From Geminicoccus roseus DSM 18922 (lineage in GTDB: Bacteria; Pseudomonadota; Alphaproteobacteria; Geminicoccales; Geminicoccaceae): DNA of 64,000 nt. The stretch spans positions 2,194,196 to 2,258,195 of the forward strand of contig NZ_KE386572.1 in the NCBI RefSeq assembly GCF_000427665.1, given 5' to 3'. Both the position numbers and the translations under genes were made by a program. Under the pieces are notes generated by a model. It was not told the origin of the DNA. It saw only the letters and a list, made by a program, of their open reading frames with translations, and made no database searches. This document shows, one piece after another, positions 29,465-43,757 of this stretch. Numbering within the stretch: position 1 is the first letter of the stretch; each line of letters opens with the position of its first letter.

Positions 29465-30043
29465 ATGAGCACGGTCTGGTTCATCACCCATTCCGACGTC
29501 CAAATCGACGCGAACGTCCCGGTGCCGCGCTGGCCTTTGTCGGAGCGCGGCCGCGTCCGGATGAGGATGTTCCTGGCCAAGGACTGGGTGGCGGGGCTGG
29601 CCGCCATCTGGTCCAGCACCGAGCAGAAGGCCATCGACGGCGCGACGATCCTTGCGGAGGGGCGCGGTATTCCTCGCCATGAGCTGGAAGAACTCGGCGA
29701 GAACGACCGCAGCGCAACCGGCTATCTCGCCCGGACCGAGTTCGAGGCCACGGCAGACCAGTTCTTTGCGAGACCGCATGAATCGGTGCGCGGCTGGGAA
29801 CGGGCGGTAGATGCTCAGGCACGCATCGTCCAGGCGGTGGACCAGGTCATCCGCCTCCATGGCACCACCAGCGACGTCGCAATCGTGGCCCATGGCGGAG
29901 TGGGTACCCTGCTGCTCTGCCACCTGAAAGGCTGCCCCATCCAGCGCTCGGAAGACCAGCCCCCCAACAATGGCGGCAACTACTTCTCATTCGATGCGCA
30001 AGGTCGAACCCTGCATCATGGATGGCGGGCAGTAGACGCCTGA
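29465..30043 (+). CDS. histidine phosphatase superfamily protein with atypical catalytic motif
   Basis: A 192-residue cytosolic protein. It follows the phosphoglycerate-mutase-like layout: an N-terminal catalytic His in VWFITHSDVQID, WPLSERGRVRM, SSTEQKAIDGATILA where RA is usual, and the second His in VAIVAHGGVGTLLL. The normal RHG triad reads THS here, so the phosphate-binding Arg after the first strand is missing. It could still bind a ligand through other residues, or have a changed role. It is coupled to frmA by only one base of spacing, but a link with formaldehyde metabolism is not established. Confidence 0.8.
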   Translation: MSTVWFITHSDVQIDANVPVPRWPLSERGRVRMRMFLAKDWVAGLAAIWSSTEQKAIDGATILAEGRGIPRHELEELGENDRSATGYLARTEFEATADQFFARPHESVRGWERAVDAQARIVQAVDQVIRLHGTTSDVAIVAHGGVGTLLLCHLKGCPIQRSEDQPPNNGGNYFSFDAQGRTLHHGWRAVDA

Positions 30044-30230
30044 ATGTGAGCCGTAGAGAAGCGGCTGGCCGCTTCTGTATTCGTCTTTTTGGTCCCATGG
30101 CCGGTGATTTTCGTCACGCCTGTTCCTGCCCAGGCTGTAAATATTCATGGCTACCGGCCTAGCGGCCGGGATCGGCCGAGGCCGGCGATCGTGCCGGCTC
30201 ATGTGCCTGTCATGCAGGGGACAACCAGCC

Positions 30231-31214
30231 ATGGACCAGAAGGCAGCAGAGTGGCCGCGGAAGACGCGCGACCTGCACAATCATCACATGGATTCGACAA
30301 TCTGGGACAAGCTCGACTTCAGGGATGACGACATTGTCATCGCGACCTATGCCAAGTCAGGTACAACCTGGGTTCAACAAATTGTCGGTCAGCTTCTATT
30401 TCAGGGTGCTCCGGATGTTGCCGTAGCCGAGATGTCGCCGTGGCTCGACTTGCGGGTGCCGCCCCAGGATGTGAAGCTTGAGGCGGTCGAGGCGCAGCGG
30501 CACCGTCGCTTTCTGAAGACCCACCTTCCCGTAGATGCCCTGACCTTCTCGCCGAAGGCAAAGTACCTTTATATCGGTCGGGATGGCCGCGACGTGGTCT
30601 GGAGTCTCTACAACCACCACGTTCAAGCCAACGAGTATTGGTATCAGGCGCTGAACGATACTCCGGGCAGGGTCGGCCCACCTATCGCGCGCCCGCCTTC
30701 GGACATCTGCCAGTACTTCAATGAATGGCTGGATAGGGACGGCCTTCCGTTCTGGTCGTTCTGGGAGAACATCCGGAGTTGGTGGACGATCCGGCAGCTG
30801 CCGAACCTGATGCTGCTGCACTTCGCCGACCTCAAGGCGGATCTGCCGGGGCAAATCCGCCGGATCGCCACCTTCCTGGAGATTCCAATCGATGAGCGGC
30901 GCTGGCCTTCGATCGTTGAGCATTGCAGCTTTGACTACATGAAGGCGAACGCACGCTTCAGCGCGCCGGCGGGAGGCATCTTCTGGGAAGGAGGAGCTCC
31001 GACCTTCGTGCACAAGGGGACGAACGGACGCTGGCGCGAGGTGCTCAGCGCCGCCGATAGCCGCCGCTACGAAGAAGCGGCGCGGCGGGAACTTGGCGAT
31101 GCCTGTGCGCATTGGCTGGCGAGTGGAGAGATAGTGACGGAGACGGAGCCATTGCCGGTCGTCCGGCCGCTGGCTGCGAGCAGCGGCACGTCTGCGACGA
31201 CGATATCCGTCTAG
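30231..31214 (+). CDS. PAPS-dependent sulfotransferase (cytosolic type, Sulfotransfer_1)
   Basis: A 327-residue enzyme moving sulfate from PAPS to a hydroxyl or amine. The 5'-phosphosulfate loop is TYAKSGTTWVQQIVGQL near residue 40, followed by FLKTHLPVDAL with the likely catalytic His. The 3'-phosphate motif is YIGRDGRDVVWSLYNHH, and the C-terminal FVHKGTNGRWREVLS matches the RKGxxGDWK dimer/PAPS motif. The start at 30231 follows AGGGGA. It opens a stretch with two glycosyltransferases and a second sulfotransferase, suggesting sulfation of a glycan or lipid. Confidence 0.92.
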   Translation: MDQKAAEWPRKTRDLHNHHMDSTIWDKLDFRDDDIVIATYAKSGTTWVQQIVGQLLFQGAPDVAVAEMSPWLDLRVPPQDVKLEAVEAQRHRRFLKTHLPVDALTFSPKAKYLYIGRDGRDVVWSLYNHHVQANEYWYQALNDTPGRVGPPIARPPSDICQYFNEWLDRDGLPFWSFWENIRSWWTIRQLPNLMLLHFADLKADLPGQIRRIATFLEIPIDERRWPSIVEHCSFDYMKANARFSAPAGGIFWEGGAPTFVHKGTNGRWREVLSAADSRRYEEAARRELGDACAHWLASGEIVTETEPLPVVRPLAASSGTSATTISV

Positions 31215-31642
31215 CGTCGGCGCCGGTCTCTGAAGCGGCTGCTGTCCTACCGGCCGGCAGAGTGAAGCGACACCCATGATTGGCATGCGGGGCGGGGCGA
31301 GCTGTGCCTCGTCCCCCCTATCGCTCGGCTGCGGCATCCTGGTGCATCAGGTTGGCTGCAGTGCTGCTTGTGCTGGCAGACCCCGAATGCGATCAATTGC
31401 TATAGGCGGAAGTGGTTCCATGCAGAGGGCGGCAATCCAGCTATTCGCCTCAAAGGATCACATCGCTCATATATCAACGTTTTTCTGGAAATTATAAAGC
31501 ATTGGGAACCTGTTTGGGTCCTGGTGATTTTTTGCGAATGCAGTGGCAGCGGAACGTCGATCAGCGCCAGGCTTGGTTCTCAAGCAAGGTCGAGAGGCAT
31601 GACCGCGGTTGCGCAAGGTGGCTTTGGGAAAGGTGAGGAGCC
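31215..31642. other. gap with an AT-richer patch
   Basis: No gene is supported. The stretch 31440-31550 is visibly richer in A+T than its surroundings (CATATATCAACGTTTTTCTG) and may hold the promoter of the small secreted protein that follows. Confidence 0.4.
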
Positions 31643-32035
31643 GTGCACGGCTTGCGCTTGGGCTTGGCTCTGCTGGCTGCTTCAGTCGCGTATGTCTCCG
31701 ACAGCGGCGCGGCCAGCGAACGCCATTTCGATCTGCGAGTCACTGTCCCGGTCGTCTGTTCGATCGACCGTCTTGAGGCCAATGCGCCTGGGCTCCTGAT
31801 GTTCGAGGAGTTCTGCAATGCCGCCACAGGTTACCGCCTGTTCGTTCAGCACAGCCCAGGTGGCGCCGGCGACGCCTTGTACTTCCGCTATGGCGGGCGA
31901 TGGGTGCCGGCCAACCCGAGCGGTGTAACCCTGATTTCCGAGGAGCCCAAGGCTGGGCGCTATCGGCGCAGCCTGGAAGTTCGGCCGCACCGGCTGGCCG
32001 CCGCCGGGATCACGCTTTCGATCGTCCCGCGCTGA
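31643..32035 (+). CDS. small secreted protein, SCPU/pilin-like beta-sandwich
   Basis: A 130-residue protein starting at GTG after AGGTGAGG. Signal peptide LGLALLAASVAYVSDSGAAS, then LRVTVPVVCSIDRLE, EEFCNAATGYRLFVQHSPG (Cys pair) and a closing strand GITLSIVPR. This layout (short domain, two Cys, terminal LSI strand) resembles the first protein of the pilus operon at 5.3 kb, though similarity is weak. It may be an extra pilus or surface subunit encoded away from the operon. Family unnamed. Confidence 0.65.
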   Translation: MHGLRLGLALLAASVAYVSDSGAASERHFDLRVTVPVVCSIDRLEANAPGLLMFEEFCNAATGYRLFVQHSPGGAGDALYFRYGGRWVPANPSGVTLISEEPKAGRYRRSLEVRPHRLAAAGITLSIVPR

Positions 32036-32070
32036 ATGTTGGCTGTCTGCTCCGGCCACCGGGACCGTTC

Positions 32071-33732
32071 CTACCAGCTTTTTCTGGCCTCTTCCCGAGC
32101 GCCTGCCGGGGTCTCTGAACTGGCAGATGGGCCGGAGCATGCTGATCGGTCCGCAGTGGGTTCATGGCGCCACGTGTAGGCCATCACCCGACTAGCTTGA
32201 GGCAGGAGAACCGGCTTGGCTGAGCGCACAATCATGTCGGCGACGTCATTGTCCAGCATTGGTGCATGACGCCAACGATAGATGGACGTGATGACGATGC
32301 CTGTCCGGTGACAGGCCATTACCTGAGCGAGTGCTTCCGCTGTGCTGATGATCGGCCGGCCCGTGCGCGGGTCGACCGAAAACTGCGGAGTGTCCGAACC
32401 GGGACGCTCGTCGAGCCGGCTCCTGCTGACCAGGACGTCGTAATCCCCAAGGAAATACAGGGCGTCAAGTTCGGAAGTCACTACGACAACATCCGCTGCG
32501 CGGATGAGGGGAGCCAGCACGGGCTTTGCCAGATCCCAGCGGGTCGGCGGCAGCTCGGGCGGAATGGTGACATTTGCCAGCATCAGCAGGCTGCGCACCG
32601 AGGCTGCATTGGCGGCCACGATCCAGGCACCTGACAGGAACAAGACGATGAGCCCGAGGATGCCTTTTGGATGGGCTGGGTAAAGGCGCGCGAACAAGGT
32701 GCCTGTCTGCTCACGGGCAAAACGCACGATAGCCGAAAGGATGCTCGCAAGCCCGATGCCCCAGAGCGCAAACAGGAAGGGCATGATATAATAGACGTAG
32801 CGCAGGCTCTTCGAGCCGGCAAAACTGTGAAGTACCAGCCCCACGCCTGTCATGACAAACAAGAAGAAGCCAGTTTGTGGTCGAGCCGACAATGCCCCTA
32901 CGAGGAGGATTGGAAGGAGCGACCATAGAGTTGGATAATACAGAATCATCCAGGCATGGTAGTAAGCGGCGTTGTCGGCATTATCCGCAGACCAGAGCGG
33001 CGTGCTTCGGTACATTCCGAGCAGCTTCGCCAGCATGCCTGTTGAGCCAGCCGCCGCTATGGCCAGACCCAGAAGGACAACCGTCAGGATGATGAAGGCC
33101 AGGCGCCGGCCCCGTGGTACGTTCCTGGACAGGAGCCAGGGGCCCACAAGCTGCAGAACCAGCCACGCTCCCAATGCCGCCAGTCCGATCAGCGTGGTGA
33201 TCTGAAACATGATAGCGGCTGCGAATGCCGCGCTGGCGATGACGCCCCGGATCAGGCGGACACGAGGTGCAGCCGGATGGGTCACCAGATCGTAGATGCA
33301 GATGGAACCGAGCAGGAACGCCAGTCCATGGAAGGCGTAGAACCGGGCGAAATGGGCAATGTCTAGAGAGAAGGGGGAGACCGCGAAGAGCAGCACTGCG
33401 ATCAGGGCCGCTCGGTTTCCGGCCTCACGGCGCAGCCAGACGTACAGCAACGTGACAGTGGACGCGACGCAGAGCAGCGACGGGAGCCGCGCTATCCACA
33501 CATCGTCTCCCAAGAGCCCGAAAAGAGCAGCTATGACCCGGGTGAGCGGCCATCCCCGCTCATAGATGCCGTCGGCGATCGCATAGCGCCCAGTCTCTGC
33601 AAATCCTCGTGCCGCCAGGACATGGTAGAGTTCGTCGAAGTCCGGTGGAATGTCGAGGTTGACCGCATAGAGCGCGCAGCATGCCAGGAACAGCAGGCAC
33701 GGCACCGCCAGTTCGCTTCGCCAAGCGGTCAT
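32071..33732 (-). CDS. GT39/ArnT-like membrane glycosyltransferase
   Basis: A 553-residue membrane protein with roughly ten hydrophobic helices. The first periplasmic loop carries the acidic motif of GT-C enzymes (NLDIPPDFDELYHVLAARGF, Asp-Glu). IERGWPLTRV-type and FARFYAFHGLAFLLG segments follow, and a soluble C-terminal part of about 170 residues ends in YTWRHEPTADRS. GT-C enzymes use polyprenyl-phosphate sugars to glycosylate lipids or proteins at the membrane's outer face. It lies 70 bp downstream of the GT4 gene on the same strand, probably in one operon. Confidence 0.8.
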   Translation of the reverse strand: MTAWRSELAVPCLLFLACCALYAVNLDIPPDFDELYHVLAARGFAETGRYAIADGIYERGWPLTRVIAALFGLLGDDVWIARLPSLLCVASTVTLLYVWLRREAGNRAALIAVLLFAVSPFSLDIAHFARFYAFHGLAFLLGSICIYDLVTHPAAPRVRLIRGVIASAAFAAAIMFQITTLIGLAALGAWLVLQLVGPWLLSRNVPRGRRLAFIILTVVLLGLAIAAAGSTGMLAKLLGMYRSTPLWSADNADNAAYYHAWMILYYPTLWSLLPILLVGALSARPQTGFFLFVMTGVGLVLHSFAGSKSLRYVYYIMPFLFALWGIGLASILSAIVRFAREQTGTLFARLYPAHPKGILGLIVLFLSGAWIVAANAASVRSLLMLANVTIPPELPPTRWDLAKPVLAPLIRAADVVVVTSELDALYFLGDYDVLVSRSRLDERPGSDTPQFSVDPRTGRPIISTAEALAQVMACHRTGIVITSIYRWRHAPMLDNDVADMIVRSAKPVLLPQASRVMAYTWRHEPTADRSACSGPSASSETPAGAREEARKSW

Positions 33733-33802
33733 CGGTTCTCAGCCTCTTCCGGCTTTTCCCCATTGGGATAGTCGTGCCAGTTCCTGAAGAACCATCTCCA
33801 GA

Positions 33803-34945
33803 TCACAAACTCGCAGCTTTGGAGGCAGACGCTGGCCGCGTAGCCGTGGCCGGGAGTTTGTCATTGGACAAGAGCGATCGATAGACCTCGAGGTGCAGGT
33901 CGATGGCATGATCGAGAGCGAACACTCGGGCCACGTGTTCCCGCGCGCGCTGGCCACGTTCACGCCAGCGATCCTCTTCCAGAAGCCAGGCCAAGCCTTT
34001 GGCGAAGTCGTCCTTGGCGGCGTGATACCCGAACTTGGTGGCGAACCCATCCGGATCCACAAAACTCATGATGGCACATCCGTGGGCTGCCGCTTCCAGA
34101 AAGGAGTTAGGCATCGCCTCTCGTGTGGCAGTGTTGATCATGATCCAGCTTTCACCCAGGACGTTTCCATGGGTGCCCGAGGCAAACTGGTCGACCATGC
34201 CCAGAAACTCGATGTTTGGCAGACTGCCATACTTCTTCCGCAGAGAAGCCTCATAGTTGATGTCGCGGGACTTGCCCATCGCAAGAAATCGGACCTGCGG
34301 AAACTGCGCGGCCAGATCCAGGAACAGATCAGGTCGCTTCCTCCGGTCGAGTCTGGCGACGTAGCAGACCGTCGGTTGCTGGGCCTTGTGCGGCTCCGGG
34401 GGGATGGGAACTGGCGTGGGCAGGAACCGCGGCTTCACCTTTGGTCGGTACATCCGCTCGACCTTCGGAACCAGCCACTCGGCGATGGTGTAGAGAGCAT
34501 CCGCCCGTCGGACGGCATAGCCCAGAGCCGGGTTGCTTTCGAACAGGTAGTTGCCGACCACCTGCAACCTGTTAAGCGATGGACGTGCGAACTCCAGCGC
34601 CCAGTCGGTCCAGTCTCGCGGATCCCGGAAGGTGATCATATGTCGGCGCTCGGGCATCGCCCGCTGCGCCAGGAGAGTCCCCAGCGAGATCTCGCACGAG
34701 TGGTACACGTCAGCGTTCACGTCACGGAACAACTGCAGCATGCATTGTGGCCGGAGCGGTGGAAACCCGAGCACGGTGATCCCGTCCAGCTTTTCCACGG
34801 GGTGTTGGCCGGGACGCTGCGGGACTACCACGAAGACCTCAACACCGCGCTTCGCCAACTCGCCTCCGATCATCCTGGTGGCGCGGCCAAACCCGCCATG
34901 CTTGCCCCAAGCGAAAATCTCGGTGGAGATCAGGCAGATCCTCAT
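33803..34945 (-). CDS. glycosyltransferase family 4 (GT-B fold)
   Basis: A 380-residue cytosolic enzyme. The N-terminal Rossmann opening is MRICLISTEIFAWGKHGGFG with GRATRMIGGELAKRG, then FPPLRP, and in the C-terminal half VCYVARLDRRKRPDLFLDLA and GESWIMINTATREAMPNSFL, the family's acidic donor-binding region (EAMPNSFLEAAAHG). It should transfer a sugar from a nucleotide donor to a glycan. The start at 34945 overlaps the stop of a small upstream gene (ATGA). The 54 nt of frame upstream of that start have no family match. Confidence 0.9.
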   Translation of the reverse strand: MRICLISTEIFAWGKHGGFGRATRMIGGELAKRGVEVFVVVPQRPGQHPVEKLDGITVLGFPPLRPQCMLQLFRDVNADVYHSCEISLGTLLAQRAMPERRHMITFRDPRDWTDWALEFARPSLNRLQVVGNYLFESNPALGYAVRRADALYTIAEWLVPKVERMYRPKVKPRFLPTPVPIPPEPHKAQQPTVCYVARLDRRKRPDLFLDLAAQFPQVRFLAMGKSRDINYEASLRKKYGSLPNIEFLGMVDQFASGTHGNVLGESWIMINTATREAMPNSFLEAAAHGCAIMSFVDPDGFATKFGYHAAKDDFAKGLAWLLEEDRWRERGQRAREHVARVFALDHAIDLHLEVYRSLLSNDKLPATATRPASASKAASL

Positions 34946-35262
34946 GAGCTCACGCTCGCCGGCAGTGCAGGGCCGGGCCTCGCCTGCAATCCGGTCCAAC
35001 CGCCCGCCGCTAGGCCAGACGGACGTGAATCACGCTGCCACGCGACCTTGCCCATTCTAACAGTGAGGGGGGAGAAGCGTCCTGCAATTGCACCGGCCGT
35101 GGTCGTGGGTAGGAAGTCGGAGCCATGAATCTGGATAGGTAGCCAGGGTTCTCGTTCTCCGCCAAATGATAGAGAATCGATGAGCGGTCGGCGTTCATCG
35201 GCAGAAGCATGCAGATTTGGATTATGACGGACGTCCATCAGGGGCTTTAACTTCTGAGCCAT
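34942..35262 (-). CDS. small protein of unknown function coupled to the GT4 gene
   Basis: A 106-residue frame with an excellent ribosome site (GGAGGAGAG, five bases before the ATG) and an ATGA overlap with the glycosyltransferase start. The sequence (MAQKLKPLMDVRHNPNLHAS ... WLPIQIHGSDFLPTTTAGAI) has no signal peptide or membrane helix and matches no family I know. The last 40 residues are low-complexity, so it may be the remnant of a longer gene or a true small protein. Confidence 0.5.
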   Translation of the reverse strand: MAQKLKPLMDVRHNPNLHASADERRPLIDSLSFGGEREPWLPIQIHGSDFLPTTTAGAIAGRFSPLTVRMGKVAWQRDSRPSGLAAGGWTGLQARPGPALPASVSS

Positions 35263-35345
35263 CCGACTCTCCTCCGCTGCGGCTTGCCACCTTCATTCTT
35301 GAGGCATCAAATTAACGAGTTTCCGGGAGAGACTACAATCCTGGA

Positions 35346-36305
35346 TTATTCGAGCCAATGCGACAGGTTGTGCCCGATCGTCCCCTCAAGCTTCCTGATA
35401 TCAGGGCGGAATCGCGCCAGCAGCATTGTCCGAGTGTCGGATGAGAGTGGCTCCACGGCAACCGGCGTCATGGGTTTCAGAAGCAGGCGTCGTACTGTCG
35501 GCCGGATCGTCCGGTAGAGCCAGGCAGGCATTCGTGCCTGCAGGCTGGCAGACTGGAGGTAGGGACGAGCAATCAACCAGAAGAGCGGGCCAGACCGTGG
35601 AACCTGGGCCACCGCAGAGACATTGTGGCGCTCCTGCGTGTCCATCGGCACGTGCGGATCAATGTCGAGAAACCGGAAGATTGCCTGCATGCAGTCGACC
35701 GGATCGCGTCGAAGGTCCTCATAAAGCACGACGTGGATCTGCCTGGAGTCGAAGAGGTCGAAATAGGGGGCAAGTTGCTGGCCATAGAAGCCCCGCTCCA
35801 TGTATAGCCAGGTTGGTGCCCAGTTTGCTCGCTTCCGCTCTGGTTCAGCGTCCACGGCATGTTCAAATCGGTCCAGCGGCTCGGCCTGGTCACGGCGCAT
35901 CTGCATATACTTTGAATGCGCTCGGTCAACCGGATGCCGCAGGACGACGATGATCCTGGCATCTGGAGCCTGTTCCTTGATTCGCCGGGCAGCGTCAGGA
36001 TAATACAAATAAGATGCTGATGATTCGCCTCGAAAAAATGCACCTGAGCCCTGCGAGAAGAGGTCTTCATACTCACGTTGATCCAGGATTGAAAATTGGT
36101 ACTTCTCTCTGCGGATCCGGTCGCGGCGGAAGAATGATCCTGGCTCTTCTGGTGGTCCAGCAAAAGATGGCAAGACCCCGGGAAAAGCGAAGTAGTTCGG
36201 CTCCTTGACAGGCGACATGAAGACGTCTGGATGTTGTCCGAGATAATGGTGCAGGGAAGTGGTGCCGGATTTGGCCGCGCCTATGACGAACAGGTTTGGC
36301 ATCAT
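35346..36305 (-). CDS. sulfotransferase, NDST/heparan-sulfate type
   Basis: A 319-residue PAPS-dependent enzyme. The 5'-phosphosulfate loop is LFVIGAAKSGTTSLHHYLGQ at residue 5, and the 3'-phosphate strand is IIVVLRHPVDRAHSKYMQM near residue 120. KEPNYFAF near residue 35 is typical of the bacterial/NDST-like branch, as is FLDIDPHVPMD in the C-terminal half. It is a different branch from the sulfotransferase at 30.2 kb. It lies on the same strand as the two glycosyltransferases and upstream of them, so it probably decorates the same product. The first two codons are both ATG. Confidence 0.92.
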   Translation of the reverse strand: MMPNLFVIGAAKSGTTSLHHYLGQHPDVFMSPVKEPNYFAFPGVLPSFAGPPEEPGSFFRRDRIRREKYQFSILDQREYEDLFSQGSGAFFRGESSASYLYYPDAARRIKEQAPDARIIVVLRHPVDRAHSKYMQMRRDQAEPLDRFEHAVDAEPERKRANWAPTWLYMERGFYGQQLAPYFDLFDSRQIHVVLYEDLRRDPVDCMQAIFRFLDIDPHVPMDTQERHNVSAVAQVPRSGPLFWLIARPYLQSASLQARMPAWLYRTIRPTVRRLLLKPMTPVAVEPLSSDTRTMLLARFRPDIRKLEGTIGHNLSHWLE

Positions 36306-37128
36306 GTCGTTGGTCTCATGGTGCTGTCTACTCTCAACAAGATGCGAACAGGCCGGCCGGAGCGCCTACTGACCTGAACAGAGCGCGATCAGCCTTGAAT
36401 GGCTGTAGTTTAGAGTCCTCGCCCGGGGCGAAATCTTGTCGAAGGGCGATGGTTCTTGAACAATTTTCCGTGGACTCGGGCTGAAGAGGCCGCGTCTGTC
36501 GAGCATGAGAAGGTATCACTTGAGACGTGATTATCTAATACCAAGCGATCGAACAATTAAATTTGCGCACTCGATAGCGGTCTATTATTTTGTGAGGGAA
36601 CTTATCTCGGTATCTTTTGTGCTTGCTGGTGAGACTCTCTGAAATAAAAATTGGGAAACTTTCTGAGGAATGCTTATTTTCTGGGCAGAAAGACTTGAAT
36701 GCCTAAGTATGATCGAAGAGTATATTGCAACAGACCGTTGTCTCTTTGTTCCTCTCATAGTTCAACAATCGGCTGTGGCCGCATGATGATTGGTCAACCC
36801 GCACACCGGCTTCAGAAGGTGGGCAGCGATGCATTCACTCATCCGATCGGTTTGTCCCCTGCGTCCCTGATGATCTCATTCAGCAGCCAGATCAGCTCTT
36901 CGTCCTGTTGAACAAAAATCTGCGAGTCATACGTGGGCGGTACCTTGAACTGCGTCCCCTGGTTGTTGTCCCGCAAGCGTCGGAGGTTTCTATCGGAGAG
37001 ATTCGATGGGGCTGGGCTACCTGATGAAAGGCGGGGATGTTCGTCGGTGGCGCGATAGCTTCCGCCTGCCGATTCTGGGACGCGCGTCAGGAGGCATATT
37101 GGCAAACGAGATCGGCCGCCGCCGATCT
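36306..37128. other. 823-bp gap, AT-rich in its first half
   Basis: The stretch 36520-36720 is clearly AT-rich for this genome and probably holds the promoter of the sulfotransferase gene. A TTG-started frame on the minus strand (36839-37105, 88 residues, ending DEELIWLLNEIIRDAGDKPI) looks somewhat protein-like but has no ribosome site or known family. No other gene is supported. Confidence 0.4.
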
Positions 37129-39231
37129 TCAGACCCGCAGGGTGGGATGGTCAGCGCGCGCCGCGTGATGCTCCGCGATAGCCCCGAACAACTGTTCCCA
37201 TTCCACTGGCTTGACCAGGACGTCATTCATTCCTGCGTCTCGGCAGCGCTGATACTCCTCCGGCAGAATGCTGGCCGTCAGTCCCAGCACCGGCACCTTG
37301 TTCCGCGGATCGGGAAGATCGCGGATGAGCCGCGTCGCCTCGATGCCGTCCATTACCGGCATCTGGACGTCCATTAGGACCATCTCGAACCTGCCTCTGA
37401 CCATCATCTCGACAGCCTCGACGCCATTGCGTGCGGCTGTGACCTGATGGCCGTACCGGCCCAGCATCTGGGACACCAGCTTCCGGTTTACGGCTCCATC
37501 ATCCACGACGAGCACCCGGAGGGGAGGCATGGCCGTGGCATCCAGCGGAGCCGCGTCGGGGGCCGAACCCAATTCGAGCGTTACCTGGAACCAGAAACAG
37601 CTTCCGATCCCTCGTGTGCTCGTGACGCCTATCTGCCCACCCATGGCCTCGATGAGGCGCTTGCTGATGGCGAGGCCCAGCCCGATCCCGCCATGGCTCC
37701 TCTTGGTGGAGGTCCCGTGCAGGTCGAAGGACTGGAACAGATCGGCGACCTTCTGGGCAGACATCCCGACGCCGGTGTCCACGACCTCGACGAACAACTC
37801 GACAGCAGAATCTCTTGCAAGCTTGTGGCGTACCCGCACCGTGACGCTGCCACGGTTGGTGAACTTGAGGGCGTTCCCGACGAGGTTGAGCAGAACTTGC
37901 CGAAGCCGCTTGGGGTCGCCCCGGACCACTTCCGGCAGATTCTCTTCGACCTCGAAATAAAAATCCAAGCCCAGATCGCTCACTTGCGGCATCGAAAAAG
38001 ATCTTACCTGATCCAGAACCTCCCGGATCGAGAAGTCGACGGAATTGATGCAAAGCCGACCAGTTTCGCTTCTTGAATAGTCAAGCAGGTCATTGAACAT
38101 TGCGAGAAGGTGTCGCCCTGAAGTCCGTATGGTTTCAAGATAACCCTTCTCGTTAGGGGACAGATCGGATTCGGACATGAGGTCGACCATGCCCAGGACT
38201 GCGGTGATCGGAGTACGGAACTCGTGCCCCATTGCCGACAGGAAATTCGCCTTCGCTCGCCTGGCCTCCGCCGCACGTTCTTCCGCTGCCTGTAAAGCCC
38301 GCGTCAGTTCCTCCCGCTTCGAGTGAGCAATCCCAGCCGCGAGCAGTGCCAAAGAGGCAACGGCGAGGAAGATTTGAGAACCGATAAGGGAAGCGTCAGA
38401 TCCAAACCAACCGGTCCCGACTTTTGCCATGGCGATGACTGCCAGGGTCAGAGCGACCAGCGTCAAGGAGCCCCACGAGAAGCCATGGCGGGAAGCGACC
38501 AGAACCACCAGGGGGACGAGCAGCATTGGAAGCTGAAGATATGGCGGCGCAGCAAAGGCAGCCGCTCCCACAGCCGCCACTCCGGCGATCACAGCCGCAA
38601 CTGCCGTCAAGGAGGGACCAGGATCCCGCCGCCTAGCCAGTGGGCTGCTCCAGATGAGCAGCACAGGCAGAACCACGAGCAGGCCTACCGCACGGGGTGC
38701 ATAGGAAACGAGCACGTCTTGAACCGTGGGAAGGCTGCCAATGAGAATCTGTCCGGTGACGATCGAAATGGACACCGTCATGGCGGGGATCACCAGGGCT
38801 GCCAGGCTTAGGGCACCCGCTTGCCAATAGTTTCCGATATCCAGCCGGTTCTTGAAGAACCTTTGCAGGACACCGGCCGCCAGAACTGCCTCGCCGACAT
38901 CCAGCCCGACCTTCTCGATGGCCGTGGCCGGCCCCAGCCCAAAAATGCTGCCGGCAGCCAGGATCGCGGCGGCACCTGAGAAGGCCAGGATCGGCCATGC
39001 ACGAACGTCATGCCGAAGAAAAACCCCCAGCATCACGGCGCTGACGGGGGTCAGCAGCATGCCTGCGTCAGAAGGACCCCAGAGGACCTGATCGATCAAC
39101 GTCGAGAGAAATGCTGCCAGCGCGATTGCCAGGATCCAGCAGATGGACGCGGAGGCGATGACGCGGCCGCAAGCACGCGGCCTTGAAAAGGGGTTCGCAA
39201 GCACGTTGCCGGTCTTCCCTGCCTGAGTCAT
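37129..39231 (-). CDS. MASE1 hybrid sensor histidine kinase
   Basis: A 700-residue protein. Residues 20-305 form a MASE1-like integral membrane sensor of about eight helices (LTPVSAVMLGVFLRHDVRAW; FGLGPATAIEKVGLDVGEAV). The kinase core follows, with the phospho-accepting His336 in FLSAMGHEFRTPITAVLG, the N box NLVGNALKFTN, and G boxes DTGVGMS and GGIGLGLAISK. A C-terminal receiver domain has its phosphorylatable Asp621 in VLMDVQMPVMDG and the conserved Lys in LVKPVEW. It has no output domain, so it should pass phosphate to an unlinked partner. It lies 0.9 kb from rpfF. Confidence 0.92.
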   Translation of the reverse strand: MTQAGKTGNVLANPFSRPRACGRVIASASICWILAIALAAFLSTLIDQVLWGPSDAGMLLTPVSAVMLGVFLRHDVRAWPILAFSGAAAILAAGSIFGLGPATAIEKVGLDVGEAVLAAGVLQRFFKNRLDIGNYWQAGALSLAALVIPAMTVSISIVTGQILIGSLPTVQDVLVSYAPRAVGLLVVLPVLLIWSSPLARRRDPGPSLTAVAAVIAGVAAVGAAAFAAPPYLQLPMLLVPLVVLVASRHGFSWGSLTLVALTLAVIAMAKVGTGWFGSDASLIGSQIFLAVASLALLAAGIAHSKREELTRALQAAEERAAEARRAKANFLSAMGHEFRTPITAVLGMVDLMSESDLSPNEKGYLETIRTSGRHLLAMFNDLLDYSRSETGRLCINSVDFSIREVLDQVRSFSMPQVSDLGLDFYFEVEENLPEVVRGDPKRLRQVLLNLVGNALKFTNRGSVTVRVRHKLARDSAVELFVEVVDTGVGMSAQKVADLFQSFDLHGTSTKRSHGGIGLGLAISKRLIEAMGGQIGVTSTRGIGSCFWFQVTLELGSAPDAAPLDATAMPPLRVLVVDDGAVNRKLVSQMLGRYGHQVTAARNGVEAVEMMVRGRFEMVLMDVQMPVMDGIEATRLIRDLPDPRNKVPVLGLTASILPEEYQRCRDAGMNDVLVKPVEWEQLFGAIAEHHAARADHPTLRV

Positions 39232-40133
39232 CAATTACCGGATATGTTTCTTATCAGTCCGCGAATCTGATACGCTGGAAAAAACAGATAAATACTACGC
39301 TCCTGCCGGCAAGCATAGTGTGGTGAATGAGCGCAGTGCCCCCTGACTGGAATGCGTAATAGATGGCAGGCGTGCAATTATCGTCTCAAAGAGTGGGGTT
39401 GATCCAGTTAAGGTCGACCCTTGGACACTCCTGCCTGAGGATAAAGCATCAAGATGCTTACCCATGTTGATGGAGGGAGGTAGGCACGCGCAATGGGTTT
39501 CAGGACAATGAACGCTCAGGTTGTGGATGTCGTGTTCGAAAGCGTGTAACGTGCAAGGCTCTTAGATCAAACTAAGGCAGCAGTGAAGCTTCCGGACATT
39601 TATTGAGATATTTCAAATATTTTACTTGAGTTTAGAAATCTTTCTATAAATCTCATTCAGTAATAGAATATTTTAGTTAAAATCATCTGCAGACAAGTGT
39701 GTTGATTAACATGCTTTGAAGCCTTCCGTCGACGGCGCTGGCATGTCGGTCAATGACATATTGGTAATGCGTGCAACTGTGGGGCGTGGCGATTCCTGCC
39801 GAAGAGCGATACGGGGCTGTATGTTGAAATGAAAACATTCTGGCGAATTGCAATCTTTTCAAAAGAAATCGGTCAGCGTTCTAGCGAAATCTATAGGTCA
39901 GGTTCTAATCCTTTTTGATGTTGGAATGAGAATCTTCCGAGAATTTTTGAATATTTCGTAAGCTCAGCATGGAGTATTTTCTATTCTTTGCAAATTTTGC
40001 TTAAATTGTTAAGTAAAACTTTAAAATATATCATTTGAGTATTCAGAATTTTAGTGTTTTTGTTGGGGGCAGAAGGAAATACATCTGAGTTTCTCGGATT
40101 GTTCCGGGAGCTCCCTAGAGTTGGGTAAAGTAA
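39232..40133. other. AT-rich 900-bp gap upstream of rpfF
   Basis: From about 39560 to 40130 the sequence is strikingly AT-rich (for example 39601-39720), unlike the GC-rich genes on both sides. I find no supported gene. A short hairpin AAGCAT-CAAG-ATGCTT lies at 39444-39459, and a perfect dyad GGGAGCTCCC lies at 40106-40115, 18 bp before the rpfF start. The region presumably holds the rpfF promoter and perhaps binding sites for a silencing protein. Confidence 0.5.
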
Positions 40134-41138
40134 ATGTCTCGTGCTCTGCGCTCCTTCCAGAATGACGTCTACTACCCTAAGCTTGCGGGCGCTGCTGCCC
40201 CGGTTGCCACGGTGACCCGCTTCCCGTCGTGGCGGAGCCGCTCGCCGGAGCTGGAGCTGGAGCATCTGAGCGTGGAGCTGGATGCCTCGGCGGGTCTGCT
40301 GTTCGCGCGGATGAAGCACCGCGCCCGGGCCTGCTACACCCCGGCCCTGATGCAGGACATGCGCCGCCTGCAGCACCACCTGGTCGAGCTCTATGCCGGC
40401 CGCCCGACCGAGGAGATCCCGTTCCGCTACCTGGTCTGGGCGTCCGAGGCGCCCAAGGCCTGGAGCCTGGGCGGCGATCTCGCCACCTTCACCGGGATGA
40501 TCCGTGCCAAGGACGAGGCCGGGCTGCGCGCCTACGCCCATCTCGCCATCGACATCCTGCACGACAACCTGACCAGCCTGGGCCTGCCGATCCTGACCGT
40601 GGCGCTGATCCAGGGCGACGCGATCGGCGGCGGCTTCGAGGCGATGCTCACCGACGACCTGGTGATCGCCGAGGCTAGCGCCAAGTTCGGCCTGCCCGAG
40701 ATCCTGTTCAACCTGTTCCCCGGGATGGGCGGCTACAGCTTCCTCAAGCGCAAGCTGGGCGCCGCCCTGGCCCGGCAGATCCTGGAGGACGGCCTGTCCC
40801 GCTCGGCGGCCGAGGTCAAGGCGCTGGGCCTGGTCGACCTGGTCTGCGCCGAGGGCCAGGCCGAGGCGACCTTGCGCGGCTACGTCGCCGACAACGCCCG
40901 CCGCTTCAAGACCCTGCTCACCCTCAAGCAGGTCCGCGAGCGCGCCGACCCGCCCTGCAAGGCCGAGCTGGTCGACATCGTCGACCTGTGGGTCGACCTC
41001 GCCCTTGAGCTTGGCGAGGACGAGCTGCGCCGCATGGACTGCCTCGCCCGCGTCCAGGAAAAAAAGAGGGCGCTGGCTGGGCAGGCTGTCCGCGAGGAGG
41101 TCAGCCTCAGCAAGATGGCCGTGGGCGCGAAGTGGTAA
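40134..41138 (+). CDS. rpfF: DSF synthase RpfF (crotonase-fold enoyl-CoA hydratase/thioesterase)
   Basis: A 334-residue crotonase-family enzyme that should make the diffusible signal factor, a cis-2-unsaturated fatty acid, from hydroxyacyl-ACP. The hallmark block is VALIQGDAIGGGFEAMLTDD ... FGLPEILFNLFPGMGGYSF. It carries Glu169 and Glu189, 20 residues apart, as for the two catalytic Glu (141 and 161) of Xanthomonas RpfF. WSLGGDLATFTGMIR and VDLWVDLALELGEDELRRMD also match RpfF closely. The N-terminus is about 40 residues longer than in Xanthomonas. It converges on rpfC, 54 bp apart. The start ATG has only a weak ribosome site. Confidence 0.88.
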   Translation: MSRALRSFQNDVYYPKLAGAAAPVATVTRFPSWRSRSPELELEHLSVELDASAGLLFARMKHRARACYTPALMQDMRRLQHHLVELYAGRPTEEIPFRYLVWASEAPKAWSLGGDLATFTGMIRAKDEAGLRAYAHLAIDILHDNLTSLGLPILTVALIQGDAIGGGFEAMLTDDLVIAEASAKFGLPEILFNLFPGMGGYSFLKRKLGAALARQILEDGLSRSAAEVKALGLVDLVCAEGQAEATLRGYVADNARRFKTLLTLKQVRERADPPCKAELVDIVDLWVDLALELGEDELRRMDCLARVQEKKRALAGQAVREEVSLSKMAVGAKW

Positions 41139-41185: not shown

Positions 41186-41215
41186 GGCATCGTCATCTGG
41201 CTGTCCGACGATGCC
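41186..41215. terminator. possible shared terminator between convergent rpfF and rpfC
   Basis: GGCATCGTC (41186-41194) and GACGATGCC (41207-41215) form a perfect 9-bp stem with a 12-nt loop across the rpfC stop codon, 48 bp after rpfF. There is no T run on either strand, so it is a weak candidate. Confidence 0.35.
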
Positions 41216-43757
41216 TGCTTTCGGGAGGGCGATACGCTCGCAGCAGGCCTATGACGGCATGCACTTCAGCCTCCAGGGCATGAACAGCTTGGAGATCGTC
41301 GCCAAGAAGGTCTTCGTCGGTTCGATCCTGCCATGCCAGCAGCGTCCCGTGCAAAGCTGACGCTCCCACATAAGCAGCGCTGCCGCACAGCTTGTGGGCG
41401 AGATATCGCATCCTTGCAGGATCACGACTTTTCGCAGACTCCCGCATGGCGCCGATCGACTCCTCGGCTTCGGTGATGAAGGTGGCGATCAGCTCCTCCG
41501 CAAAGCCATCCTCCATATCCGGCCCCGCCCACGCATCGAGCCTGCGCCGGTCGAGGACTGGAACGGCAGCCGCATCGGTGGATGGTTTTCCTGAGCTGAT
41601 AACAGCCCCCTGGCCTGGTGTAGCCGGGTGGACGACGCGCAGGCTGGCGGCGGGGGCCGGGGGTGGACTGGCGGGGGGGTGGGGGCGGACGCGGTTCTCG
41701 ACCAGGCGGTCGATCTGGGCCAGCAGGATGGGCGCGTCGATCGGCTTCACGGCATGGCCGGCAAAGCCGACCTGGCGGCATTCCTCGACGGTGGCCTCGG
41801 TGACGTCGGCGGTCAGCGCCAGCACCGGCGGCAGCTCGTCCTCGACAAAGCGCAGCAGCTTGAGCGCCTCGATCCCGCTCATGCCCGGCATGTTCAGGTC
41901 CATCAGCACCAGGTCGAACGCCTCGGCGGCGATCCGGTCGACCGCCTCCTGCCCGGAGCCGACCACCACCACCTGGTGCCCGGCGCTCTCCAGGATCCGC
42001 CTGGCCACCTGCTGGTTGGTCAAATTGTCCTCGGCCACCAGCAGCCGGGCCGGATGCGCCGCCCGCACCGGCGCCGGGCGGCCGTCGGGCAGGGCCTGGT
42101 GCGGCGCCAGCGCCGCGCGCACCAGCACCGGCAGGTCCCGCTCCAGGTCCGGCGCCGCCAGCGCCGCCAGGGCAGCGTCCGGGACCGGCCGCTCCGGCGG
42201 CTGCACCAGCACCAGGTCGACGCTGCCCTCGATCCGCCGCGCCACCAGCTGGGCCAGCTCAGCCAGGTCCTCGGCCAGCGGCTCGGCCAGCACCAGCAGC
42301 TTGCGGCCATGGCCCAGGCGCAGCGCCCGCACCGCGCTGGCCAGGTCGCCGGCGGCCATGGCCGCAGCGCCGGCCGCCTCCACCGCCGCCCGGGCCCGCG
42401 CCGCCAGGTCTCCCCGGCCCAGCACCACCACGGTGCCGTGCAGCGGGAAGGACGCCACCGTCGGGGCCGGGGCCGGCGCCAGCGGCAGCACGAAGCCGAA
42501 CCGGGCGCCTTCGCCCACCGCACTGGCCAGGGTCAGCCGCCCGCCCATCAGCTCCACCAGCTCCTTGGCGATGGTCAGCCCCAGCCCGGTGCCGCCATAG
42601 GCCCGGTTGGTGGTGTCCTCCGCCTGGGTGAAGCTCTCGAAGATCCGCGCCTGCAGCTCAGGCGGAATGCCGATCCCGGTGTCCTCGACCACGAAGCCGA
42701 CCCCGGCCCGGCCGTCCGGCAGCGCTGCCGCCTTGGCCACCCGCAGGGTCACCCCGCCCTGTTCGGTGAACTTCAGCGCGTTGGCGACCAGGTTGGCCAG
42801 CACCTGCTGCAGGGCGGCGACGTCGCCCTGCAGGTGCGGCGGCACGCCCGGGTCCAGCACCAGGCGCAGCCACAGGCCGCGCGCCTGCGCCTGCGGCTCC
42901 AGCATGCCGCGCAGGACCCCTAACAGCGCGTGCAGGTCGAACGGCTTGGTCACCACCACGAACCGGCCGGCCTCGATCTTGGCCGCGTCCAGCACCGCGT
43001 CGACCAGCCCCAGAATGGTGCCGGCCGCGGTGCGGATCGTGCCGACCATCTCGCGGCGGTCGTCGTCGGCCTCATCCTGGCGCAGCAGGTCGGACAGGCC
43101 GATCACCGCGTTGAGCGGGGTGCGGAACTCGTGGCTCATCACCGCCAAAAACCGGCTCTTGGCCTGGTTGGCGGCCTCGGCGCGGCGGATCGCCTGCTCC
43201 AGCTTGCGCAGCAGCACCGACACGTAGGCCGGCAGCACCACCAGGGCCAGGATCATCGCCACGTCCAACGCCGGCACCTGCCGCCAGTCCGGGTTGAGCA
43301 GCACCACCAGCCCGAACAGCACCAGCGACACCGCGGCCGAGCCGAACAGATAGGGCCGGCCATAGCGGAAGCCGTGGCCGAAGATGATCCACAACAGGAT
43401 CGGGTAGAACGGCGCTGCGGTCATCCCCCCCGCCAGCATCACCGCGTTCACCCCGCCGGTGTCGATCAGCATCCCCAAAACCCGGCGCACCACGCTCACC
43501 CCGGGCCACACCAGAATATGCACCAGAACCAGAACCGCCAAAACCAGCGCAACCACGCTGATCCCAAGGCCGTAGAAGAGATAGCTCGTCGTTCCATCCA
43601 GCAGCATCGTGGACAGAATGATGTAGAAGCCGATCAGCAGCGCGAACCCGATCCGGATCAAGGCCTGCTCGTGCTCGGTGTCCGGGCGCGAGGCCAGCCG
43701 ATCCTTCACGCGCCCGAGCAACCTATGTCCCTCAGGTGGATGCCCTTCCGCAGCCAT
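41193..43757 (-). CDS. rpfC: DSF sensor RpfC: hybrid histidine kinase with receiver and HPt domains
   Basis: An 854-residue sensor. The N-terminus RLASRPDTEHEQALIRIGFA closely follows the Xanthomonas RpfC opening, which binds DSF. About five membrane helices follow (residues 35-185), with RRVLGMLIDTGGVNAVMLAG and GHGFRYGRPYLFG. Kinase: His209 in FLAVMSHEFRTPLNAVIG, N box NLVANALKF, G boxes EDTGIGIP and YGGTGLGLTIAKEL. A degenerate receiver-like stretch spans residues 440-550, and a true receiver has Asp620 in VLMDLNMPGMSG. The C-terminal HPt has His788 in YLAHKLCGSAAYVGA. The ATG has GGAAACC before it. The partner RpfG is not in the window. Confidence 0.88.
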   Translation of the reverse strand: MAAEGHPPEGHRLLGRVKDRLASRPDTEHEQALIRIGFALLIGFYIILSTMLLDGTTSYLFYGLGISVVALVLAVLVLVHILVWPGVSVVRRVLGMLIDTGGVNAVMLAGGMTAAPFYPILLWIIFGHGFRYGRPYLFGSAAVSLVLFGLVVLLNPDWRQVPALDVAMILALVVLPAYVSVLLRKLEQAIRRAEAANQAKSRFLAVMSHEFRTPLNAVIGLSDLLRQDEADDDRREMVGTIRTAAGTILGLVDAVLDAAKIEAGRFVVVTKPFDLHALLGVLRGMLEPQAQARGLWLRLVLDPGVPPHLQGDVAALQQVLANLVANALKFTEQGGVTLRVAKAAALPDGRAGVGFVVEDTGIGIPPELQARIFESFTQAEDTTNRAYGGTGLGLTIAKELVELMGGRLTLASAVGEGARFGFVLPLAPAPAPTVASFPLHGTVVVLGRGDLAARARAAVEAAGAAAMAAGDLASAVRALRLGHGRKLLVLAEPLAEDLAELAQLVARRIEGSVDLVLVQPPERPVPDAALAALAAPDLERDLPVLVRAALAPHQALPDGRPAPVRAAHPARLLVAEDNLTNQQVARRILESAGHQVVVVGSGQEAVDRIAAEAFDLVLMDLNMPGMSGIEALKLLRFVEDELPPVLALTADVTEATVEECRQVGFAGHAVKPIDAPILLAQIDRLVENRVRPHPPASPPPAPAASLRVVHPATPGQGAVISSGKPSTDAAAVPVLDRRRLDAWAGPDMEDGFAEELIATFITEAEESIGAMRESAKSRDPARMRYLAHKLCGSAAYVGASALHGTLLAWQDRTDEDLLGDDLQAVHALEAEVHAVIGLLRAYRPPESRHRRTAR

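Follow-up and report, generated by a model that had tools for sequence, protein, structure and literature searches.

Does a locus that sets sulfotransferase genes beside glycosyltransferase genes serve to build a sulfated surface glycan? This question was addressed for Geminicoccus roseus DSM 18922, a marine bacterium, in a window of 64,000 nucleotides (the whole stretch of DNA analysed; contig NZ_KE386572.1, positions 2,194,196 to 2,258,195). The assembly comprises five contigs with 5,698,370 bases, and the window lies on the 5,421,495-base contig. A sequence-only reading of this DNA had proposed a locus for a sulfated surface glycan at positions 30231-36305. Both sulfotransferases that it named (here ST1 and ST3), the family 4 glycosyltransferase (GT4) and the membrane transferase (PMT) were recovered at their positions as open reading frames with Pfam profiles above cut-off (Table 1). 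Genes in the window and in the neighbourhoods of relatives were called with a home-made codon-usage caller, and Pfam scans covered 10 proteins from the locus and the genes around it. Sixty genomes were searched, the own genome included, and 31 of them belong to the family Geminicoccaceae. One (G001) is the only genome of the same genus in this set and is referred to as the sister species.

The best unit for a glycan function consists of ST3, GT4 and PMT, three genes on the minus strand that lie in an island of low GC content at the third codon position (GC3) and are transcribed in an order starting with ST3. ST1 and a possible secreted open reading frame are on the plus strand. On balance, we favour the view that ST3, GT4 and PMT form a satellite module, which would add sugars and sulfate to the lipid-linked glycan of a surface polysaccharide exported via a Wzx/Wzy-type system coded on another contig (C1). 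The proposal of a sulfated surface glycan locus is retained, on indirect evidence, as the best reading for these three genes, ST1 most likely being no part of it.

ST3 is likely a carbohydrate sulfotransferase

Near its N-terminus ST3 carries the motif GAAKSGTTS, read from the sequence, which we take to be the 5'-phosphosulfate loop of sulfotransferases that depend on 3'-phosphoadenosine 5'-phosphosulfate (PAPS). The best relative of solved structure was a sulfotransferase from Alicyclobacillus (PDB 3rnl, E-value 1e-53), followed by heparan N- and 3-O-sulfotransferases. An AlphaFold model was computed from five sequences, using four of the five relatives from the genome-contig scan (L014 was left out), and had a predicted local distance difference test score (pLDDT) of 66. 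Foldseek placed the same families at the top as the sequence search. The match of the model to 3rnl (E-value 2.3e-16, template-modelling score by target 0.74, root-mean-square deviation 5.9) is in line with a sulfotransferase fold. The heparan N- and 3-O-sulfotransferases (1nst, 1t8t) resemble ST3 in sequence and predicted fold, but share only 17-26% identity with it in the Foldseek rows. By these comparisons, ST3, a PAPS-dependent sulfotransferase, is likely of the carbohydrate type. A relative with 33% identity to ST3 was found within a flippase/GT4 cluster of G008. In a tree of 15 sulfotransferase sequences, from which the own-genome matches in L110, L111 and L113 were left out, ST3 grouped firmly only with the copy of the sister species.

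ST3 is paired with GT4 in a second species

The start of GT4 was placed at ATG 34945 and not at TTG 34999. Relatives of GT4 were detected in three other genomes (79% in G001, 65% in G025 and 48% in G021). The subfamily is rare: it was present in 4 of 31 order genomes at an E-value of 1e-20, own included. A class-wide profile search, in which at most five candidates per genome were scored, returned 1 of 385 genomes, namely the one that holds the window; G001, G021 and G025 were not in that set. The sister species has an ST3 relative (58%) on the same contig and strand as its GT4 relative; roughly 1 kb separates the two, and an LPG_synthase_TM gene lies in this space. When 14 proteins of the window region were compared with this contig, only ST3 and GT4 were matched, and therefore the flanks of the pair differ. 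The sequence comparison indicates that ST3 and GT4 belong together.

PMT relatives lie in polysaccharide clusters and recur in a trio

Residues D33 and E34 of PMT are invariant in 14 aligned relatives and presumably are the conserved acidic pair in the first loop of PMT_2 / GT-C transferases. PMT relatives occur in 18 of the 60 genomes, own included, and the family genomes hold 20 PMT genes when two contig-end pieces in G001 are counted as one. Neighbourhoods were examined for 18 of the 19 other family PMT genes, several of them on short contigs; the gene in L144 was not called. Pfam scans at five of the loci took in twenty neighbouring proteins, and most other neighbours were judged by coordinates and first residues. 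The scanned proteins included polysaccharide flippases, GT4 enzymes, Wzy_C proteins and asparagine-synthase-like proteins. A heparinase II/III protein (L133 3929-5665) was found near PMT relatives as well, together with cadherin/Ig proteins, one of which has 1202 aa and a chondroitinase-B domain (L131 14119-17727). Because such proteins occur in the relatives' clusters, lyases for an acidic polymer are suggested.

G. roseus itself holds a PMT paralog with 57% identity (G000:C1:85815-87455). A GT4 gene lies alongside this paralog, with a flippase gene some 3 kb upstream, and the same contig codes for Wzy_C and a Wzz/kinase protein at a distance of about 27-29 kb. A 1188-aa protein with bacterial Ig, cadherin-like and laminin-G-type domains was also observed near the paralog (L125 1694-5260 = G000:C1:77693-81259).

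A sulfotransferase abuts PMT (at most 40 bp apart) in 3 of the 19 other family PMT genes (G014, G017 and G019), each time with GT4 next. The order in G014 and G017 is PMT, sulfotransferase, GT4 on one strand, with a 4-bp overlap and a 5-bp gap, respectively, between the first two genes. In G019, sulfotransferase, PMT and GT4 follow each other on one strand, with a gap of 39 bp. Only 0.03-0.05 abutting cases were expected (rough Poisson P at most 2e-5). Within 5 kb, a sulfotransferase was found for 4 of the 19 genes among the matches listed (G025 is added), versus 0.33-0.62 expected (P 0.0004-0.004).

Sulfate activation and sulfotransferases across the family

A strong match to adenosine 5'-phosphosulfate (APS) kinase was obtained in the genome for CysNC (C1:3963-5825, E-value 1e-66). 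CysD adjoins it, and CysDNC lies at G000:C1:3963-6681. A second, much weaker match just above cut-off lies at C5:4554230. Both are outside the window, and a PAPS kinase co-located with the locus, which had been raised as a possibility, was thus not found in the window by this own-genome search. CysD and CysNC adjoin a GT4 gene on the downstream side (L145 2620-6681, G000:C1), and this neighbourhood may be a further sulfated-glycan locus of G. roseus. CysH scored above cut-off with the PAPS-reductase model NF002537 and below it with the APS model TIGR02055. It contains the cysteines CC...CxxC, which we take to mark the iron-sulfur APS type. Since the NCBIfam models and the cysteine pattern point in opposite ways, CysH was dropped as an argument for PAPS serving sulfation alone, and PAPS may also be used in cysteine synthesis.

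All 31 family genomes contained both sulfotransferase domains; summed per genome, PF13469 gave 170 matches and PF00685 gave 145, with overlap between the sets. Sulfotransferases are therefore not uncommon in the family. The earlier statement that sulfated products are uncommon in this group was wrong as far as the enzymes are concerned; domain counts do not show sulfated glycans.

A proposed satellite module for a sulfated polysaccharide and its rivals

We propose a glycan role for the trio because the ST3-GT4 pair is kept with different flanks, because PMT relatives sit in polysaccharide clusters and because the trio recurs. The proximity of ST3 to heparan sulfotransferases and the presence of CysDNC, Wzy_C, the Wzz/kinase protein, a flippase and the PMT paralog on C1 argue for the same role. 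In the proposed mechanism, PAPS would be made by CysDNC. GT4 would act in the cytoplasm, attaching a sugar to a lipid-linked glycan that ST3 would sulfate there. A further sugar would come from a lipid-linked donor and be added by the PMT-type enzyme at the outer face of the inner membrane; polymerisation and export of the chain would fall to the Wzx/Wzy-type system of C1. The substrates, the order of the steps and the export route, as well as the position of ST1 outside the trio, are what we infer from these data.

Several observations weigh against this proposal. A PDB search with the 14-sequence PMT profile returned 0 chains at an E-value of 0.01. Neither a flippase nor a polymerase was found among the 10 Pfam-scanned proteins of the window locus and its flanks, and the ST3 model is of moderate quality. 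As judged by their neighbours, the nearest relatives of GT4 pair with LPG_synthase_TM and not with PMT. For 15 of the 19 other family PMT genes, no sulfotransferase lies within 5 kb among the matches listed. The sulfotransferases that abut PMT are only 26-30% identical to ST3, and the 15-sequence tree left 8 of 12 inner branches open and the relation of these enzymes to ST3 unsettled; the trio therefore recurs by function and not as shown descent. GT4 as its third member adds little weight, since GT4 genes are common in these clusters. The Poisson test of adjacency used per-genome sulfotransferase counts, drew on the sulfotransferase matches listed, was made after the pattern had been seen and treated related genomes as independent.

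The company that GT4 keeps elsewhere makes a sulfated glycolipid the main rival. GT4 would then glycosylate a membrane lipid, ST3 would sulfate the head group and a membrane protein would move the product across the bilayer. This mover would be the LPG_synthase_TM protein in the sister species; in G. roseus, PMT could fill the role, or else an LPG_synthase_TM protein with its gene at another place in the genome. In G025 and G021, an LPG_synthase_TM gene is located beside the GT4 relative or two genes away, together with a second GT4, so that all three other genomes with GT4 show this association. The stretches read around the GT4 relatives of G025 (a 6-kb contig) and G021 showed no sulfotransferase. 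G. roseus has five LPG_synthase_TM genes over the family cut-off, none of them in the window. The gap that separates ST3 from GT4 was searched by tblastn with four relatives for remains of an LPG_synthase_TM gene; as the best E-value was 2.8, the idea of such a decayed gene was rejected. The missing remnant and the location of PMT relatives in polymer clusters argue against the glycolipid, which we regard as unlikely.

A second rival concerns ST1. Its best PDB matches were SULT2B1 (E-value 2e-30) and SULT1 enzymes, which it matched over residues 26-301 of 327. ST1, unlike these cytosolic enzymes, is bacterial. The two sulfotransferases do come from different branches, as had been noticed before: ST3 leads to one bacterial enzyme and then to heparan-type enzymes, ST1 to SULT enzymes. 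Relatives of ST1 with 70-73% identity were found in G003, G021 and G025, the one in G003 with one in-frame stop within the matched stretch. Beside these three relatives no GT4, PMT or flippase was seen (3 neighbours were Pfam-scanned; the G025 contig has 3.8 kb). The gene before the G003 relative codes for a penicillin-binding protein with transglycosylase and transpeptidase domains, and in two genomes an 84-aa Transgly_assoc protein adjoins the ST1 relative (L078 10718-10972, L079 9774-10028). No ST1 match was obtained in the sister species, which keeps ST3-GT4. ST1 most likely lies outside the trio because it is on the opposite strand, is SULT-like and has close relatives with no such partners seen alongside; it probably stands apart from ST3, GT4 and PMT. 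Joint action of ST1 and ST3 on the same glycan, with the island as one functional unit, would fit the position of both genes inside the island and the two sulfotransferases of distinct subfamilies in the synechan cluster, as given in the cluster description of PMC8205485. Strand, SULT likeness, the sister species and the neighbours of the ST1 relatives all speak against it, and we consider joint action improbable.

That the sulfotransferases act on unrelated small molecules, their grouping with glycosyltransferases being loose packing in a variable, perhaps acquired, island, would suit the low GC3 across unlike genes and the abundance of sulfotransferase domains in the family, but is at odds with the ST3-GT4 pairing kept with different flanks and with the repeated trio, and is the least probable explanation considered here.

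The satellite module might also be part of a wider picture, which we put forward as a tentative and rather doubtful conjecture. Geminicoccaceae would share a glycosaminoglycan-like sulfated exopolysaccharide, made by PMT-sulfotransferase-GT4 modules beside flippase/Wzy genes and trimmed by secreted cadherin/chondroitinase-B and heparinase II/III proteins. The window would then hold a detached copy of such a module.

Base composition, small open reading frames and neighbouring regulators

Table 1. Features of the locus in the 64,000-nucleotide window (positions in the window).
Feature	Coordinates	Strand	Evidence
ST1, SULT-like sulfotransferase	30231-31214	+	PF00685, E-value 2e-49, 168.8 bits (cut-off 22)
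Low-GC3 island, ST1 to MASE1 histidine kinase	30231-39234		GC3
Possible small secreted protein, 130 aa	31643-32035	+	Picked by codon usage
PMT, multi-pass PMT_2-type transferase	32071-33732	-	PF13231, E-value 1e-6, 29.5 bits (cut-off 26.1)
GT4 glycosyltransferase	33803-34945	-	PF00534, E-value 1.4e-9, 38.2 bits (cut-off 26.4); PF13692, E-value 2.3e-9
106-aa open reading frame, probably no gene	34942-35262	-	Composition, caller, relatives, shuffles
ST3, Sulfotransfer_3 sulfotransferase	35346-36305	-	PF13469, E-value 7.5e-24, 85.6 bits (cut-off 27)
MASE1-HisKA-HATPase-receiver hybrid kinase	37129-39234	-	Pfam; GC3 0.71; upstream of ST3, inside island

Among called genes of 120 aa or more, mean GC3 was 0.718 for the six in the island and 0.843 for the other 41 in the window (Mann-Whitney p 8e-6, with bounds set after the data had been seen). 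Two AT-richer gaps pointed out in the sequence-only reading were confirmed: against 65% GC in the window as a whole, they have 43% (31440-31550) and 39% (36520-36720), and stretches of the same size are as low in GC in about 1% and 0.6% of cases, respectively. Both gaps belong to the larger low-GC3 pattern. A gap of 0.9 kb with 42% GC, longer than either, was observed upstream of an RpfF-type gene (39235-40133). Rfam gave no match over 29900-40200. Promoter-like sites numbered 4 versus 1.8 expected, and terminator-like sites 3 versus 4.6 expected, counts that say little about the locus.

The 106-aa open reading frame, previously described as a small coupled gene, overlaps the GT4 start by 4 bp and ends on the GT4 start codon. 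Its GC3 was 0.56 and its GC content at the second codon position 0.58, versus 0.64-0.76 and 0.43-0.53 in six neighbours. It was not picked by the codon-usage caller and had no relative in the 59 other genomes. When its 400-base region was shuffled 2000 times, 487 of the shuffles held an open stretch as long. Based on these four results it was rejected as a coupled gene and is probably a chance reading frame. The secreted protein that had also been named is weakly supported: codon usage favours it, and no Pfam match was obtained at an E-value of 0.5.

The MASE1 kinase is a candidate regulator of the locus by position only. The DSF system noted beside the locus in the sequence-only reading is likewise a hypothetical regulator. 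The RpfF-type gene (GC3 0.93) and a second kinase (0.88) are ordinary in composition and lie outside the island. The RpfF-type protein scored 176 bits with the RpfF equivalog NF053515, below the cut-off of 550, and 286.5 with the crotonase family NF006452, above the cut-off of 177; its best PDB match was RpfF 3m6m (E-value 1e-45). A hybrid kinase at 41193-43757 (HisKA, HATPase, receiver, Hpt) is convergent with the RpfF-type gene, and we take its domain architecture to resemble that of RpfC.

Significance and relation to known systems

Descriptions of sulfated extracellular polysaccharides come from cyanobacteria and from certain other bacteria, most of which are marine. No literature joining Geminicoccaceae and sulfotransferases was found in a search with most subscription papers outside its scope, and papers on G. 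roseus and exopolysaccharide, judged by title and start of abstract, included none on a sulfated polymer. Decoration of a secreted polysaccharide with sulfate and sugar is an activity already known, for which the family seems broadly equipped. If our interpretation is true, a family with sulfotransferase domains in every genome searched, where several genomes set one directly against a polysaccharide transferase, would offer tractable access to sulfated polymers and to enzymes that make them. Sulfated polymers in Geminicoccaceae would also be relevant to the way members of the family stay attached in marine biofilms.

The closest known systems are synechan and, in Vibrio sp. KMM 8419, a sulfated capsular polysaccharide (PMC8205485, PMC11641403). 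Synechan is a sulfated extracellular polysaccharide of the phototroph Synechocystis sp. PCC 6803 with an analysed product, and almost all of its genes sit together in a single cluster on a plasmid (xss). Like the case described here, its cluster combines sulfotransferases of distinct subfamilies, several glycosyltransferases, a Wzx/Wzy route and a histidine kinase (PMC8205485). In contrast to synechan, the G. roseus window has few genes, the Wzx/Wzy-type genes are on another contig, and the polymer is predicted from the genes. The Vibrio polysaccharide is made by an ABC-transporter capsule system and has a known structure, and a second copy of the PAPS genes lies within the cluster (PMC11641403). 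CysDNC of G. roseus, unlike that copy, is on a contig other than that of the locus. Both organisms nevertheless share the same set of parts, namely sulfotransferases, glycosyltransferases and cysNDC for PAPS (PMC11641403).

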